This document shows, in pieces, positions 1 to 16,092 of a stretch of 32,921 nucleotides of DNA; the stretch's first letter is position 1; every line of letters starts with the position of its first letter. The DNA is taken from IMG/VR virus record IMGVR_UViG_3300020578_004200, positions 1 to 32,921 of that record; one strand, 5' to 3'. The DNA comes from a virus. Made by a program: the position numbers and the translations under genes. The notes under the pieces were generated by a model, which made no database searches, was not told where the DNA came from, and worked only from the letters and a program-made list of their open reading frames with translations.

Positions 1-153
1 CTGATTCCAGAGCTGATTCCAGAGCTGATCCTCGAGCTGATGCCCGAGCTGATCCCAGAGCCGATCCTCGAGCTGATACCCGAGTTGAGTCCTGAGCTGT
101 TCTCGAAGCTGACGCTCGTGCTGATTTGAAAGCTGATCCTTGACGCTTATCAT
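1..153 (-). CDS. QLxx-repeat protein, fifth copy, cut by the window edge
   Basis: From the ATG at 153 the frame stays open for 51 codons to the window edge, beginning MISVKDQLSNQHERQL and continuing with QLRT, QLGY, QLED and QLWN units. The ATG overlaps the TGA of the previous copy (ATGA at 150-153), so translation is probably coupled to it. The conserved core QLRTQLGYQL seen in the other copies is present. One unit reads RLWD instead of QLWD. Length and C-terminus lie outside the window. Function unknown; no family could be assigned. Confidence 0.75.
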   Translation of the reverse strand, partial: MISVKDQLSNQHERQLREQLRTQLGYQLEDRLWDQLGHQLEDQLWNQLWNQ

Positions 154-356
154 GTCTCTTCTTGAAGCTGACTCCCGAGCTGATGCGCGAGCTGAGTCTC
201 GAGCTGATTCCAGAGCTGATTCCAGAGCTGATCCCAGAGCTGATCCTCGAGCTGATACCCGAGTTGAGTCCTGAGCTGACTCCTGAGCTGATTCCAGAGC
301 TGACTCTCGAGCTGATTCCAGAGCTGATTCCGGAGCTGATACTTGATACTTATCAT
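150..356 (-). CDS. QLxx-repeat protein, fourth copy (68 aa)
   Basis: A 68-residue protein starting MISIKYQL and composed almost wholly of four-residue QLxx units, with x-x pairs such as WN, WD, RT, GY, ED, ET and AH. It ends SQLQEET. The ATG at 356 overlaps the stop of the upstream copy (ATGA), and the stop overlaps the ATG of the next copy. No signal peptide, cysteine or catalytic motif is visible. The four-residue spacing of Leu and Trp would favour an amphipathic helix or solenoid; that is inference. The codons of the C-terminal EET residues contain GAAGAG, which can serve as Shine-Dalgarno sequence for the next copy. Confidence 0.75.
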   Translation of the reverse strand: MISIKYQLRNQLWNQLESQLWNQLRSQLRTQLGYQLEDQLWDQLWNQLWNQLETQLAHQLGSQLQEET

Positions 357-580
357 GTCTCTTCTCGAAGCTGATCTCTGATTTGATTCATATGATTCCA
401 GAGCTGATTCCAGAGCTGATTCCGGAGCTGATCCTCGAGCTGATATCCGAGTTGAGTCCTGAGCTGACTCCTGAGCTGATCCCAGAGCTGATCCCAGAGC
501 TGATTCCAGAGCTGATCCGAGAGCTGATTCTGAAGCTGAATCAATAGCTGATTCCAGAGCTGATACTTGACACTTATCAT
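353..580 (-). CDS. QLxx-repeat protein, third copy (75 aa)
   Basis: A 75-residue protein starting MISVKYQLWNQL and ending DQLREET. It is made of QLxx units with one interruption near residues 61-68 (WNHMNQIRDQL), where an HMNQI segment replaces a regular unit. It contains the same QLRTQLGYQLEDQL core as neighbouring copies, at about residues 38-55. ATGA overlaps join it to the copies on both sides. The similarity of copies at DNA level suggests growth by unequal recombination or slippage. Function unknown. Confidence 0.75.
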   Translation of the reverse strand: MISVKYQLWNQLLIQLQNQLSDQLWNQLWDQLWDQLRSQLRTQLGYQLEDQLRNQLWNQLWNHMNQIRDQLREET

Positions 581-831
581 GTCTCTTCTCGAAGCTGACT
601 CCCGAGCTGACGCCAGAGCTGACTCCCGAGCTGATACCCGAGTTGAGTCCTGAGCTGATCCCAGAGCTGATTCTGAAGCTGAATCTCGAGCTGAGTCCTG
701 AGCTGATCCCAGAGCTGATTCTGAAGCTGAATCTCGAGCTGACGCCTAAGTTGAGTCCTGAGCTGATCCCAGAGCTGATTCTGAAGCTGAATCTCGAGCT
801 GAGTCCTGAGCTGATCCTTGACGCTTATCAT
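577..831 (-). CDS. QLxx-repeat protein, second copy (84 aa)
   Basis: The longest copy, 84 residues, starting MISVKDQLRTQL and ending SQLREET. Most of its length is a higher-order repeat: the block EIQLQNQLWDQLRTQL appears three times (about residues 13-28, 33-48 and 45-60), followed by the common QLGYQLGSQLWRQLGSQL tail. This internal triplication shows recent expansion inside one copy while the reading frame and the start and stop junctions stayed intact. ATGA overlaps occur at both ends. Function unknown. Confidence 0.75.
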   Translation of the reverse strand: MISVKDQLRTQLEIQLQNQLWDQLRTQLRRQLEIQLQNQLWDQLRTQLEIQLQNQLWDQLRTQLGYQLGSQLWRQLGSQLREET

Positions 832-1004
832 GTCTCTTCTCGAAGCTGGTCCCAGAGTTGAGTCCAGAGCTGACTCCTGAGCTGATCCTGAGTCCTGAGC
901 TGAGTCCAGAGCTGACTCCCGAGCTGACTCCCGAGCTGATCCCAGAACTGATCCGAGAATTGACGCTCGCGCTGATTCCTGAGCTGATCCTTAATACTAT
1001 TCAT
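828..1004 (-). CDS. QLxx-repeat protein, first and promoter-proximal copy (58 aa)
   Basis: The start is placed at the ATG at 1004 (MNSIKDQLRNQRERQ), not at the upstream in-frame start at 1052, because a promoter with -10 at 1012-1017 lies between them and position 1004 coincides with its expected transcription start. The copy is the most divergent: it has QFSDQFWD units and one break in the four-residue register (RTQDQL). It ends WDQLREET with an ATGA overlap into copy two. It is the first gene of an operon of at least five repeat ORFs. Function unknown. Confidence 0.75.
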   Translation of the reverse strand: MNSIKDQLRNQRERQFSDQFWDQLGSQLGSQLWTQLRTQDQLRSQLWTQLWDQLREET

Positions 1005-4050: not shown

Positions 4051-4980
4051 TTATTTCTTAACAATGAACCGGCGCTGTTCGTTTATTTCAAGCACTTTCT
4101 TAAGCAGATCTTTGCTGAGAGGACCTAAATCGCTGGCTCTCGCGTTTTCTAAAACCTCACTTGCTTTCATGGCTCCGGGAATTATAGAAGTAACTTCTGG
4201 AAACGAGAGACAATATCTGAGAGCTGCAAGCTCGACATCGACTTCTCTCAATAGTTCAGCGGAACCATTTATCCAATTCTCAAGCTGGGCGCGTGACCAA
4301 TTTAATCTGTGATCACCATGTGGATAAGTTGTTTCTTTAGTAATTTTGCCGGCAAGAAAACCAAAGCACAATGGAGTACGACCGACAAATCCAATGCCTC
4401 TGCGAGCAATCTCTTCAAATAGGCCGCTGGTTATTACTCGTGTATCCATCATGTTAAAATTAGCTTGAATAACAGACACGTTATGTGATTTAAGTACCTC
4501 GAGCGCATCACTGGGAGATTTTGCTGAGATACCCCAGTATCTAATCTTACCAGCTTCTGTCAAGCTTGATAAAATCTCATGTATCTCATCCGTATCTAAT
4601 ACGGCAGGCGGCGCACCGTGCAACAGCAATAGGTCAATTCGATCTGATCTTAACCGTTTCAAACTTCTGTTTATAGACGTAACAATGCCGTTGATCGTGA
4701 AGTCTGGTCGGCCGTCCCACGCGAGATATCCGACCTTAGTTGCTAAAACCACATCTGGTGATCCATTAAATGCTTTACCGATAAGATCTTCGCTACGTCC
4801 ATATGCCGGCGCCGTGTCATATAAAGTAACACCTAGGTCGCGCGCTTTATATAAAGCTGCTATAGACTCGTTGTCATAGGTTTCTCCATACGAGGCCGAG
4901 GTGAGGCCGCCGATGCCCCAGCAGCCAAAACCGATCTCAGACACGGACAGTTTCGTGCGGCCAAGAGCTCTATACTTCAT
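4051..4980 (-). CDS. Aldo/keto reductase (309 aa)
   Basis: Full-length NAD(P)H-dependent aldo/keto reductase. The N-terminal strand MKYRALGRTKLSVSEIGFGC, the catalytic Asp/Tyr pair in YDTAPAYG (about 55-62), the Lys in ATKVGY and the His in LLLLHG give the family's tetrad. The C-terminal IIPGAMKASEV is the usual cofactor-binding segment. Its ATG overlaps the stop of the radical SAM gene by one base (TAATG), so the two are translationally coupled and probably act in one pathway. The substrate cannot be told; similar enzymes occur in sugar and polyketide gene clusters. A perfect 16-bp palindrome (GAAATAATATTATTTC, 4044-4059) overlaps the 3' end. Rare cargo for a T4-like phage. Confidence 0.88.
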   Translation of the reverse strand: MKYRALGRTKLSVSEIGFGCWGIGGLTSASYGETYDNESIAALYKARDLGVTLYDTAPAYGRSEDLIGKAFNGSPDVVLATKVGYLAWDGRPDFTINGIVTSINRSLKRLRSDRIDLLLLHGAPPAVLDTDEIHEILSSLTEAGKIRYWGISAKSPSDALEVLKSHNVSVIQANFNMMDTRVITSGLFEEIARRGIGFVGRTPLCFGFLAGKITKETTYPHGDHRLNWSRAQLENWINGSAELLREVDVELAALRYCLSFPEVTSIIPGAMKASEVLENARASDLGPLSKDLLKKVLEINEQRRFIVKK

Positions 4981-6959
4981 TAGTGGTGTCCGGCTAGCTC
5001 TAGCGGCATACCAGCTTGATAGGTCGAATACAAATACGCACCTTTCTTATTACCCCACCACACAACTTCTCTGCACCATTTCTGAAAATCGTCATAATAT
5101 CTTTCTCGACGTCGCACTAAAACTGGATTGATGTGCTCGGAAAAGATGATCTCTAGATATTCTCCAGTCTTAATGGCATTCCAATAGTCCAAGACGTTAA
5201 AGTTTTGAGATATCTCTATATCGTCCTGAACAAACGGGCGGTGAATTAGAGCCGCGTTTAATTGCATGGCGTCTTGTATCATGTGTCTCTGTTCGTAATT
5301 TAATCTATCCATTGCATTCGACGTATAGAATATAGACTGAAGTTCTTCTATAAATTCGTCAAGCTTATTATTTTTAATCAAATCAATATAGACGTATTCA
5401 TCGGCTGGCCAGAAGATACCGAGATACTCTTCAGAATATACGTATTCAGGTCCGCCGTTTTGAATGGATCGCGCTTCTCGATAAAATAAGTCAAGCACTT
5501 TATCCAGAGTTGGATATACTCCTCTCGGCTGAGTCATATACAGCTCAATAAGCTCTCGATAGGTCGCACCAGTTAGATGATTGGCGATGATCAATGGAAT
5601 CTGAAAGATCTTATCAAAATGCAGGAGAGCCGTCATCCAGCAGAATATGCGGGTCTTAACCCAATCTTCAGCCGGCATTGAGTTTGTCGCCACTACTAGA
5701 TCTTGATATTCCGGCACGTCGTCCTCTAGTTTGACTCGTTCGCCATGAATGTTAATGATTTCGGATCGTACCGTACGCATACCGTGTTGTTTTTGATACT
5801 CGGGATTTCCCATTTCTGCGTTTGGCAGAATAGATAGATTATTGAACTGAATTCGATTATGTTGGCCAGAGCTTATGAGTAGATTAACTCCATCTGCAAA
5901 GGTTTCATATGTCTCGCCTGGTAGGCCAAGAATTAGATCGGAATAGGTCTCCACACGATCTTTAGTAAAACGTTTCTGTAATTCCATGTAAGTGTCTAGA
6001 GATATATTATCGCGCTTGATGGCGACTAGCGTGGTTGGATCTACACTCTGCATCGATAGGGCAACGCCTTTATTCAATCCCGCATCAGACAGAATCTTCT
6101 GAGTTAAATAAGCGCGTTCAGTAGCGTTCTTGGTGTTTTGCACAGATAACGCCACTGGATAGCCGGTCTTATTCTTCACGTCAGCGACGTACTCAGCGAT
6201 CTCCACGTCTCTTTTCTGAATTCCAAAGTTGGCATCACAGCAAAAGACATATTCGATCTTCTTTTCGGCAAACCAATCTATCTCCCTGTAAAGCCTTTCT
6301 AGTTCGAATTTAGTAACCTTGGCCGCAGTGGCAGAACCCCAGTCGCAGAAGGTACAGCGAAATGGACAACCTCGATTGGTCTCCCATGATCCAATCCATC
6401 GCTCGTTCGGATTGGTCATCATTACTTCGTCAAAGCATCCATCGAGAAATGGCGATGGAATCTCCTCAAGATTATTCATTCGAGTCGCAGCTCGATTCTT
6501 AATAAACAGTCCATTGTAAATCATACTTATGCCGGGCATTTGAGCCCATGTACCCTCGTCGGGAAACATTTCAAGCATATGAAGAAACGTGCGCTCACCC
6601 TCATTATGAATGACTGCGGTTATTTGCGAATTATCTCTTAAAAATTGCTCGGGTTTATCCGGCACCTGTGGCCCGCCAAAAATAATTTTTACGGCTGGAT
6701 TAATCTTCTTGAGTCGTCTAGATATCTCGAGAGAAATCTGCGCATTCCATACGTATGTCGAGAATCCAACTAGATCTGCAGATTTTAATTGCTCTACCGC
6801 GTCATTGATTTTTATACGCTTATAGATAAACGGTAAAAAGTCATAGCGCTCTGGCGTCGGTGAATGAGCCTGAGCATATGACTTTAAAAGCGCGATCGAA
6901 TACGGAAGATAGTTCTGTCCGGAAAACGAATTATTGATTTGTACTAGTCCGACCTTCAC
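4980..6959 (-). CDS. B12-binding radical SAM enzyme (659 aa)
   Basis: The N-terminal 150 residues have a cobalamin-binding Rossmann layout (KVGLVQINNS..., VGFSTYVWN, IIFGGPQVPDKP). The radical SAM core follows, with the [4Fe-4S] motif C198-x3-C202-x2-C205 in GCPFRCTFCDWG, then YVFCCDANFGI and LILGLPGETYET. A C-terminal region of about 250 residues is helical and unassigned. Such enzymes do SAM-dependent radical methylations or rearrangements; the substrate is unknown. GTG at 6959 is preferred because GGAG lies six bases upstream; ATG 6965 directly abuts GGAG and TTG 6971 lacks a site. It is coupled to the aldo/keto reductase and near FkbM and GNAT genes, so I infer a glycan or secondary-metabolite role. 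Confidence 0.85.
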   Translation of the reverse strand: MKVGLVQINNSFSGQNYLPYSIALLKSYAQAHSPTPERYDFLPFIYKRIKINDAVEQLKSADLVGFSTYVWNAQISLEISRRLKKINPAVKIIFGGPQVPDKPEQFLRDNSQITAVIHNEGERTFLHMLEMFPDEGTWAQMPGISMIYNGLFIKNRAATRMNNLEEIPSPFLDGCFDEVMMTNPNERWIGSWETNRGCPFRCTFCDWGSATAAKVTKFELERLYREIDWFAEKKIEYVFCCDANFGIQKRDVEIAEYVADVKNKTGYPVALSVQNTKNATERAYLTQKILSDAGLNKGVALSMQSVDPTTLVAIKRDNISLDTYMELQKRFTKDRVETYSDLILGLPGETYETFADGVNLLISSGQHNRIQFNNLSILPNAEMGNPEYQKQHGMRTVRSEIINIHGERVKLEDDVPEYQDLVVATNSMPAEDWVKTRIFCWMTALLHFDKIFQIPLIIANHLTGATYRELIELYMTQPRGVYPTLDKVLDLFYREARSIQNGGPEYVYSEEYLGIFWPADEYVYIDLIKNNKLDEFIEELQSIFYTSNAMDRLNYEQRHMIQDAMQLNAALIHRPFVQDDIEISQNFNVLDYWNAIKTGEYLEIIFSEHINPVLVRRRERYYDDFQKWCREVVWWGNKKGAYLYSTYQAGMPLELAGHH

Positions 6960-7089
6960 TATCATCTCCAAACTAGCTGATGAGCGCCGAGCGAGTGTAT
7001 GGTAGAGAAGTGTGAAACGTTAAAAAGCTTTTAGGTATTATGTCTTGACCAAATCCGTAGCCGTTCCATAGTATAATATGAGACATATA

Positions 7090-7293: not shown

Positions 7294-7959
7294 TCATTGT
7301 TTACACACAAATATTAGGTCATGAAATGATCGATCCACCAGATCGTATCCAAAAGACTTTAGAAAAGAAACCAAATCCGGTCCACCGGGATGATGCTCAG
7401 CAAAGATTACTGGGTGAAACTTTTCGATAGTCTCAATCGCTCCCTTCAGCGCGATTAGCTCATGCCCTTCAACGTCCAGCATTATCAGGTCACACCAGCT
7501 CAAAGCCAGGTCGTCTATCTTAAAGACCGGCACGTTAGCATAAAACGACTCCACCACCGTTCTTACGCCATAGTTTGTTTCCCAGTCATCAAACGGCTCA
7601 GTCGATACTTTTACAAGACCATGCTTATAACCAAGAGCGGCATTGATTTTTACGATATTGTCCCGCTGGCAGTTAGCGACAAGACAGTGAAAGTTAACTG
7701 GATCTGGCTCAAACGTATAGACATTCTCAAACATATCCGATAGCAGCCGCGGGTACATGCCCATGTTGCCGCCCGCCTGAACCACGACTCTCCTCGAGTT
7801 ATCAGGAACATAAAGTAAGATCTTCTCTTTATGCCCGCTCTCCCAGTCCATTTTAGGCCCGATCCAGGCATGCACGTCGGTCCGAGCCCATACCCATGGG
7901 CCTACTCCATCAACCGTGTCGTTTCGCATGTGTACTAGGTTCTGGCCGGCATATCTCAC
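7294..7959 (-). CDS. FkbM-family SAM-dependent methyltransferase (221 aa)
   Basis: A class I methyltransferase of the FkbM type: the SAM-binding start VVVQAGGNMGMYPRLL near residues 58-73, the acidic motif YTFEPDPVNF near 81-90, then IDDLAL, DLIMLDVEGHELIALKGA near 157-174 and a VIFAEHHPGG strand. FkbM enzymes O-methylate sugars or polyketides. GTG start overlapping the stop of the upstream gene (GTGA). Phages carry FkbM genes in glycan clusters; here a radical SAM enzyme, aldo/keto reductase and GNAT are neighbours, so I infer a role in modifying a carbohydrate. The substrate is not known. Confidence 0.85.
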   Translation of the reverse strand: MRYAGQNLVHMRNDTVDGVGPWVWARTDVHAWIGPKMDWESGHKEKILLYVPDNSRRVVVQAGGNMGMYPRLLSDMFENVYTFEPDPVNFHCLVANCQRDNIVKINAALGYKHGLVKVSTEPFDDWETNYGVRTVVESFYANVPVFKIDDLALSWCDLIMLDVEGHELIALKGAIETIEKFHPVIFAEHHPGGPDLVSFLKSFGYDLVDRSFHDLIFVCKQ

Positions 7960-14901: not shown

Positions 14902-16092
14902 TTATTTATCTGTAAAGCTCATAATTGTATTTCTCTGATAGTCAATAATCTCATAAGTCTGCTTATGATTAGACTGCTTGAGAAGATATGCATCAACTCT
15001 TTCTCTGTTTCCCTCAAGAGCAGCTACTATCTCAGTACTCATATCTGTAGCCGTACCGACGGGAACGTTCTGGCAGATATGGTTTAGGTTCTTCTTTGGA
15101 TTTAACAGCTCGAAGTCATCTGGAAGACCCATGATCGACATACACTCTCTTACGGTGAGGTATCGATCCTCATGGTAGTGAGTCAGCGCGGTCGGCAAGT
15201 GACCGACAAAAGCGCCGATATGATGCTTGGGTACAGTAGTCTGGCGGCGCATGATCGATCTGCCCTCTGAAAGCTTTTCATGAATACGGTCGCAGCGCAC
15301 CGCGGTACGCTCCTCGCCCATCTTACGACACCACTCGGCTGCCTGAGCATAGGTATATCCCTTTGACTCAAGCCAGTCCATGGGATTTGTCGTATTGTCT
15401 ATTATATCATAGAACTGACGATGAGTAACACCCTTTTCTATCTTTTCCAGAACATATCTGTATAAAACGTCAGATTTACTAGGAGTGCGTGTATTGGTAA
15501 GATCTTGCTGAGTTGCTTGAAATGGGACAGAATCCAGCAGGCTCTCGATCGTCTTAACTGGTTTCTTGAAATAGTTCAAAAGCGGAATTCGATCTCCCTT
15601 CCAGAAGAAATAGAACGAGCGCTCGCGAACCTGGGACAGTCCGTGCAGTAGAGACTTTGTCCTATAGATCGACATGGTGTAGCCATTCATGCGCGCAATT
15701 GATAGGAGACGCTGCACTACAGGTCGTCCCATCTTTCCTGCAAACTGTGGGCTGTTTTCGCCCCAGAATACCTCAGGCTTAAGAGTCTCGAGAACGAACT
15801 CGGCCGTCTTGTACATCCACTCGTTGGTCACAGAATCAGCTGATGCGCTGGGAGACAATGTGGACAAACCTGCGCAGGGACATGTCGTTCCAATGACGTC
15901 CACTCTTTTTAACTTCGGAGTAGAATCATCTAGCATGTGATATGGGATATCTTTGTAATAGTTGACCAAATGAGAGTCATTTTCTCTAAATGGCTCATAA
16001 GACATCAGATATTCTGGTCTACTACCAAGCGCTTTTTCCTGACCAAGAACCTGACCACCGATTAAGGGAACTATGAAGGCATGAGTGGTCAT
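14902..16092 (-). CDS. DNA cytosine-C5 methyltransferase homologue with degenerate motif I (396 aa)
   Basis: Motif order is that of a C5 methyltransferase: TTCPCAGLS with the catalytic PC pair (Cys73), GENSP (111-115) for the ENV motif, SQVRERSFYFF for the QxRxR motif, a variable target-recognition region at about 180-300, RYLTVRECMSIMGLPDDF (motif IX) and CQNVPVGTATDMSTEI (motif X). Motif I is unusual: FIVPLIGGQVLG instead of the common FxGxGG. The phage also has a dCMP hydroxymethylase, so ordinary cytosine may be scarce in its DNA; the enzyme may modify host DNA, act early, or have a changed activity. ATG overlaps the preceding stop by one base. Confidence 0.85.
   Translation of the reverse strand: MTTHAFIVPLIGGQVLGQEKALGSRPEYLMSYEPFRENDSHLVNYYKDIPYHMLDDSTPKLKRVDVIGTTCPCAGLSTLSPSASADSVTNEWMYKTAEFVLETLKPEVFWGENSPQFAGKMGRPVVQRLLSIARMNGYTMSIYRTKSLLHGLSQVRERSFYFFWKGDRIPLLNYFKKPVKTIESLLDSVPFQATQQDLTNTRTPSKSDVLYRYVLEKIEKGVTHRQFYDIIDNTTNPMDWLESKGYTYAQAAEWCRKMGEERTAVRCDRIHEKLSEGRSIMRRQTTVPKHHIGAFVGHLPTALTHYHEDRYLTVRECMSIMGLPDDFELLNPKKNLNHICQNVPVGTATDMSTEIVAALEGNRERVDAYLLKQSNHKQTYEIIDYQRNTIMSFTDK

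Follow-up and report, generated by a model that had tools for sequence, protein, structure and literature searches.

The first kilobase of the DNA studied here raises the question of what a phage gains from a row of short, overlapping genes built of a four-residue repeat, Q-L-x-x. The window (the whole stretch analysed, 32,921 nucleotides, 32.9 kb) belongs to a T4-like phage, in which PHROGs recognises a major head protein, a tail tube and UvsY. Its array consists of five successive ORFs on the minus strand: ORF 1 at 828-1004 (ATG at 1004, stop at 830-828, 58 aa, MNSIKDQL...REET, matched by our profile of such ORFs), ORF 2 at 577-831 (84 aa), ORF 3 at 353-580 (75 aa), ORF 4 at 150-356 (68 aa) and ORF 5 at 1-153, cut by the window end with 51 aa visible. 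A sequence-only reading had already described this layout, and most of it stands. Neighbouring ORFs overlap by 4 nt (ATGA) at all four junctions, and the internal triplication reported for the second copy is real, a block of four units, EIQLQNQLWDQLRTQL, being present three times in ORF 2. The common start that it proposed, MISVK or MISIK, holds for four of the five ORFs, the first beginning with MNSIK; the REET or QEET C-terminus is found in all four copies with a visible end, that of the fifth lying beyond the window; and QLxx units prevail overall, with the exception of broken units in ORF 1 (for example RTQDQL). Tandem Repeats Finder reports a period of 12 with 83 copies (score 444), and a 20-bp motif occurs four times at the junctions, with at most one change each. 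As an array marker, the junction motif GAAGAGACATGATAAG was discarded, having matched eight contigs without an array of the window kind. Upstream on the same strand lie a promoter-like site at 1012-1040 (TTTACT, 17 nt, TAGAAT, with TG; a weak consensus match, one found against 0.4 expected in shuffles) and, at 1045-1067, a terminator-like hairpin (z -3.4, under the threshold of the terminator scan), which is stronger at the equivalent position in L009, the closest relative of the window locus.

Is the array coding at all? Selfish or non-coding repeat DNA, either slippage-prone or resembling a guide-RNA or CRISPR array and open in one frame by accident, would account for the 12-bp tandem units and their gain or loss, and also for the open stretches seen in several frames and on both strands of the window array. 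However, the QL/QV frame contains no stops where 5 to 67 would be expected. In the 57 window units, in which the codon of the first variable residue (x1) is usually NGG, 0 stops were observed against 4.9 expected with independent bases, and stops at x1 number 0 against 6.7-10.5 expected in QL arrays and 36-67 in the related QV arrays; stop-broken relatives, which the sequence-only reading had named as grounds for abandoning its coding claim, were looked for and not found. The 104 free-standing ORFs of 29 loci (median 63 aa) have conserved starts and overlapping stop/start junctions, nearly all of the 49 measured gaps between neighbours being overlaps, most commonly of 4 or 8 nt, and their Q and V/L codons are preserved at the amino-acid level. 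No stable fold was found at a window array junction, and the 12-bp units are continuous within a stop-free coding frame, unlike those of a CRISPR or guide-RNA array. The openness of the QL/QV frame exceeds chance and the frame is coding, which makes an accidental reading frame very unlikely.

The products match no established family, as the sequence-only reading had supposed. Pfam returned nothing over the cut-off for the QLxx ORFs, which carry the repeat alone and no DUF6745 domain (see below); the best PHROGs match had an E-value of 0.016 in low-complexity sequence and does not place them in a family, and we dismissed the weak matches of the repeat to both libraries as low-complexity noise. 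PADLOC models matched none of the window proteins (the library leaves out counter-defence families), PDB searches by sequence and by fold found no match, and in a viral fold library the only matches were DUF6745 and uncharacterised proteins. The polar helix foreseen for the product agrees with AlphaFold, which predicts a single polar helix for ORF 4 (residues 2-67, pLDDT 91.5, pTM 0.45), for a simple repeat weak evidence by itself. Such a long regular helix, together with the wide variation in repeat number among arrays, is what one would expect if the repeats were a structural or assembly element whose helices bundle or form filaments, the sequence of each copy being of little importance. We consider this improbable, since a structural repeat that assembles with itself would not usually combine conserved Q and L/V with such strong variety at the variable positions, and the strict period of four, with a hydrophobic residue every four, does not fit a heptad coiled coil. 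The same strict 4-residue (12-bp) period separates the array from pentapeptide repeats.

A more informative clue comes from the next gene upstream of the array, at 1093-1977 on the minus strand. Its 294-aa product has no internal repeat and belongs to DUF6745 (Pfam PF20530), a domain-of-unknown-function family found in bacteria and phages; the match covers residues 89-283 (E-value 6.5e-34, 117.5 bits with a cut-off of 27). In related phages the period-4 repeat of the window array also sits within the DUF6745 protein itself, an arrangement that we call cis, as opposed to free arrays of separate ORFs. The top GenBank phage match to the array, gene 38 of prophiGD102-1, encodes a DUF6745 protein with about 46 internal QLxx units, and loci L013 and L014 likewise have a repeat run inside DUF6745. 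In the alignment, the cis repeat lies between the N-terminal part and the DUF6745 domain, a place taken in the window protein by a short linker (about residues 70-90); for the cis protein of L037, AlphaFold predicts the domain well and the helical repeat with low confidence. Bacterial genome loci are mostly cis (lag-4 identity before the domain of at least 0.54 in 15 of 19), and L127 adds a further, degenerate repeat run beyond those 15. The sequence-only reading was right about a coding repeat, a polar helix and the lack of a family, and missed this tie to the adjacent DUF6745 gene and its internal repeat. The roles that it suggested, a decoy, envelope or anti-defence protein, gained no support in the analysis. 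QLxx-type arrays occur in dozens of other phages and the cis form in bacteria.

These free arrays were located through DNA patterns; direct searches of viral contigs with a QLxx ORF gave no confirmed relative, and matches in a Staphylococcus phage and in Delylah were rejected as unrelated perfect repeats, in which the annotated or main frame differs. The motif of a free array follows the built-in motif of its lineage: free ATxx arrays stand beside DUF6745 in L022 (2525-3082), L083 (4520-8276) and L081 (4243-6502), whose cis relatives L082 and L019 carry ATxx. L069 and L073 have large free ALxx arrays (with starts like MLGESLNNKF) beside a repeat-less DUF6745. In L009, whose DUF6745 protein is 82% identical to that of the window, the QLxx ORFs overlap by 14-16 nt and end in EEDHDEFS or EEDQDAFS. 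Because array copies are similar within one phage and unlike between phages, separate amplification in each lineage is suggested. Within the first 800 bases of L221 (minus strand), the long QV repeat of a cis DUF6745 gene moves through three frames, by frameshifts within the repeat or by sequencing errors.

How the two arrangements are distributed was surveyed in 80 IMG/VR DUF6745 loci plus loci from other searches, clustered at 92% into 63 clusters and scored for lag-4 identity before the DUF6745 domain and for 12-bp periodicity outside the gene. The first count gave 24 cis clusters, 29 with a free array and 10 with neither. No cis cluster of this IMG/VR survey had a free array (0/24; Fisher exact, 9.4e-10, for the first 29 free clusters and ignoring ancestry). 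Three of the 29 (L030, L045 and L063) have a single weak ORF each, and a profile search confirmed all three. For four of the ten remaining clusters, a free array turned up elsewhere on the contig or in a relative of the same cluster (L011 and L070 themselves; L032 via L029; L020 via the ATxx array of L022), so that 33 of 39 repeat-less DUF6745 clusters have a free array on their contig or on that of a close relative, and six have no detected array. We restrict the Fisher value to the first count because the four extra arrays came from looking further. A search of 12 whole cis records found QL/QV repeats nowhere outside the DUF6745 ORF. Several apparent exceptions dissolved on inspection: what looked like free QL ORFs in the cis loci L014 and L082 is the cis repeat read in antisense, the periodicity noted in L014 (703-799), L096 (2141-2504) and L021 comes either from the cis repeat or from other sequence, and the seemingly free ORF of L165 belongs to the cis protein. 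The stretch in L096 is a separate and unrelated repeat of short period, RARAIA-like in one of its frames, some 2.5 kb away from the cis DUF6745. The DUF6745 tree requires nine cis/non-cis changes and offers only three independent pairs on well-supported branches, all in the expected direction or neutral and not significant. As the clusters share ancestry, the exclusion is well supported by count and only modestly by independent events.

The association was also approached from the opposite side, by collecting contigs through the QV repeat DNA pattern alone and then checking them for DUF6745, which 17 of 32 carry, including all five contigs of at least 100 kb (one of them cis). As a rough base rate, a DUF6745 pattern scan, itself not exhaustive, confirmed 275 stretches in 2.9 million contigs. 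The 156-kb contig of L034 has 23 free copies, all but one of them no more than 5.3 kb from DUF6745, and five loci show an overlap of 1 or 4 nt between DUF6745 and a free ORF. In the other 15 contigs DUF6745 is absent from the record (one is 60.7 kb long; all may be fragments). Those 15 would be readily understood if the free ORFs were real proteins related to the DUF6745 repeat that have become independent, for instance multi-copy decoys or inhibitors of variable host proteins, and that lie near DUF6745 mainly through ancestry; the many divergent paralogues with varied x positions would also fit an arms race. We regard this as a serious though less likely explanation, which leaves unexplained why a cis DUF6745 is never accompanied by free arrays, and no known defence family was matched.

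Finding a domain fused to a protein in certain genomes, and encoded next to it by a gene of its own elsewhere, is classically taken as evidence that the two interact (the Rosetta stone principle). The repeat and DUF6745 stand in this relation, and we therefore favour the explanation that the QLxx ORFs encode arms acting in trans for a repeat-less DUF6745 hub, to which we assign a probability of roughly 0.55. The ORFs would be translated into helical repeat proteins of about 60-85 residues, each a detached version of the arm built into other DUF6745 proteins, which most likely dock in trans on the repeat-less protein, the window's 294-aa product being the proposed partner. A single hub would then draw on several different arms encoded by tandem duplicates; in each, the fixed Q-L (elsewhere Q-V, A-T or A-L) would keep the scaffold, and the contacts that the arm makes would presumably depend on the two variable positions per unit. 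That the arms physically bind DUF6745, as well as their target and biological role, is what we infer from this arrangement, which suggests that the variable arm of one protein was split off and multiplied into interchangeable parts. The DUF6745 gene without a detected array in the complete genome of Ma-LMM01 counts against the hub-and-arm explanation, as do the six clusters that likewise have none and the 15 repeat contigs, possibly fragments, that lack DUF6745.

The pattern of variation is consistent with trans-acting arms. Most of the changes fall in the first two codon positions of x1 and x2, the third varying little, and pN exceeds pS at x1/x2 in 13 of 14 arrays (comparing paralogous units, with few synonymous sites). 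Free arrays have 7.7 distinct x1x2 pairs per 10 units versus 4.5 in cis repeats (p 7e-6). The arm set would be renewed by gene duplication and by adding or dropping 12-bp units. Contigs L040 and L041, whose 7.37 kb of common sequence differs only in one 12-bp unit in a free ORF (assembly error possible), bear out the earlier proposal of a recombination-prone coding repeat. A diversity-generating retroelement or similar mutator rewriting the variable positions might produce the same concentration of changes at the first two codon positions. We think this extremely unlikely, as a reverse transcriptase (RVT_1) was detected in 0 of 32 records, which are incomplete, with positive controls, and no consensus has A at every varying position.

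A second gene travels with DUF6745. In the window it lies at 2008-2349 on the minus strand, carries an HSETGxHH motif (phrog_27831), and its relatives occur near DUF6745 in 57 of 63 clusters, with cis as well as with free repeats; it is probably part of the DUF6745 module and may be a core component. Elsewhere on the minus strand, a B12-binding-domain radical SAM protein adjoins an aldo/keto reductase (4051-6971), a pair unusual in a T4-like phage; an FkbM-type methyltransferase (7294-7959) and a C-5 cytosine DNA methylase (14902-16092) are also encoded.

Taken as a natural experiment, the built-in arm and the multi-copy separate arms predict a specific interaction, and the switch between them points to the variable residues as the working surface. 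More broadly, and at somewhat less than even odds, we propose that phages have a widespread system, so far undescribed, with DUF6745 as a hub that uses tandem, rapidly renewed and separately encoded helical arms as interchangeable recognition modules, the repeat domain of the hub having been split out more than once. It would offer a repertoire system in phages that is open to testing and apparently involves no reverse transcriptase. Neither the libraries nor the papers searched describe a phage system of this layout, and the papers make no mention of DUF6745, PF20530 or such arrays; one half of it, DUF6745, is already a known family.

The closest known counterparts are the cis DUF6745 proteins (PF20530) of prophiGD102-1, a Mycobacterium prophage, and of Mesorhizobium, Pararhizobium and Aminobacter, which share with the window the repeat (Q-L-x-x or a variant such as A-T-x-x), the 12-bp unit and the gene neighbourhood. 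They have a single internal run with few unit types, whereas the window has several separate overlapping genes, more varied units and a DUF6745 protein without the repeat. Microcystis phage Ma-LMM01 shares the pairing of DUF6745 with a gene of the TGxH(H) companion family (gp174-gp175); its DUF6745 protein has no internal repeat, and no QL/QV array was found in the complete 162-kb genome. There gp175, beside gp174, resembles the HSETGxHH family. Phage diversity-generating retroelements are similar in appearance, with amino-acid variation concentrated in a repeated scaffold, but in the window system no reverse transcriptase was found and the variation is spread over many tandem genes. Finally, pentapeptide-repeat proteins are short-period repeat proteins of phages and bacteria with a period of five and a beta-helix, in contrast to the period of four and the predicted alpha-helix of the window array.
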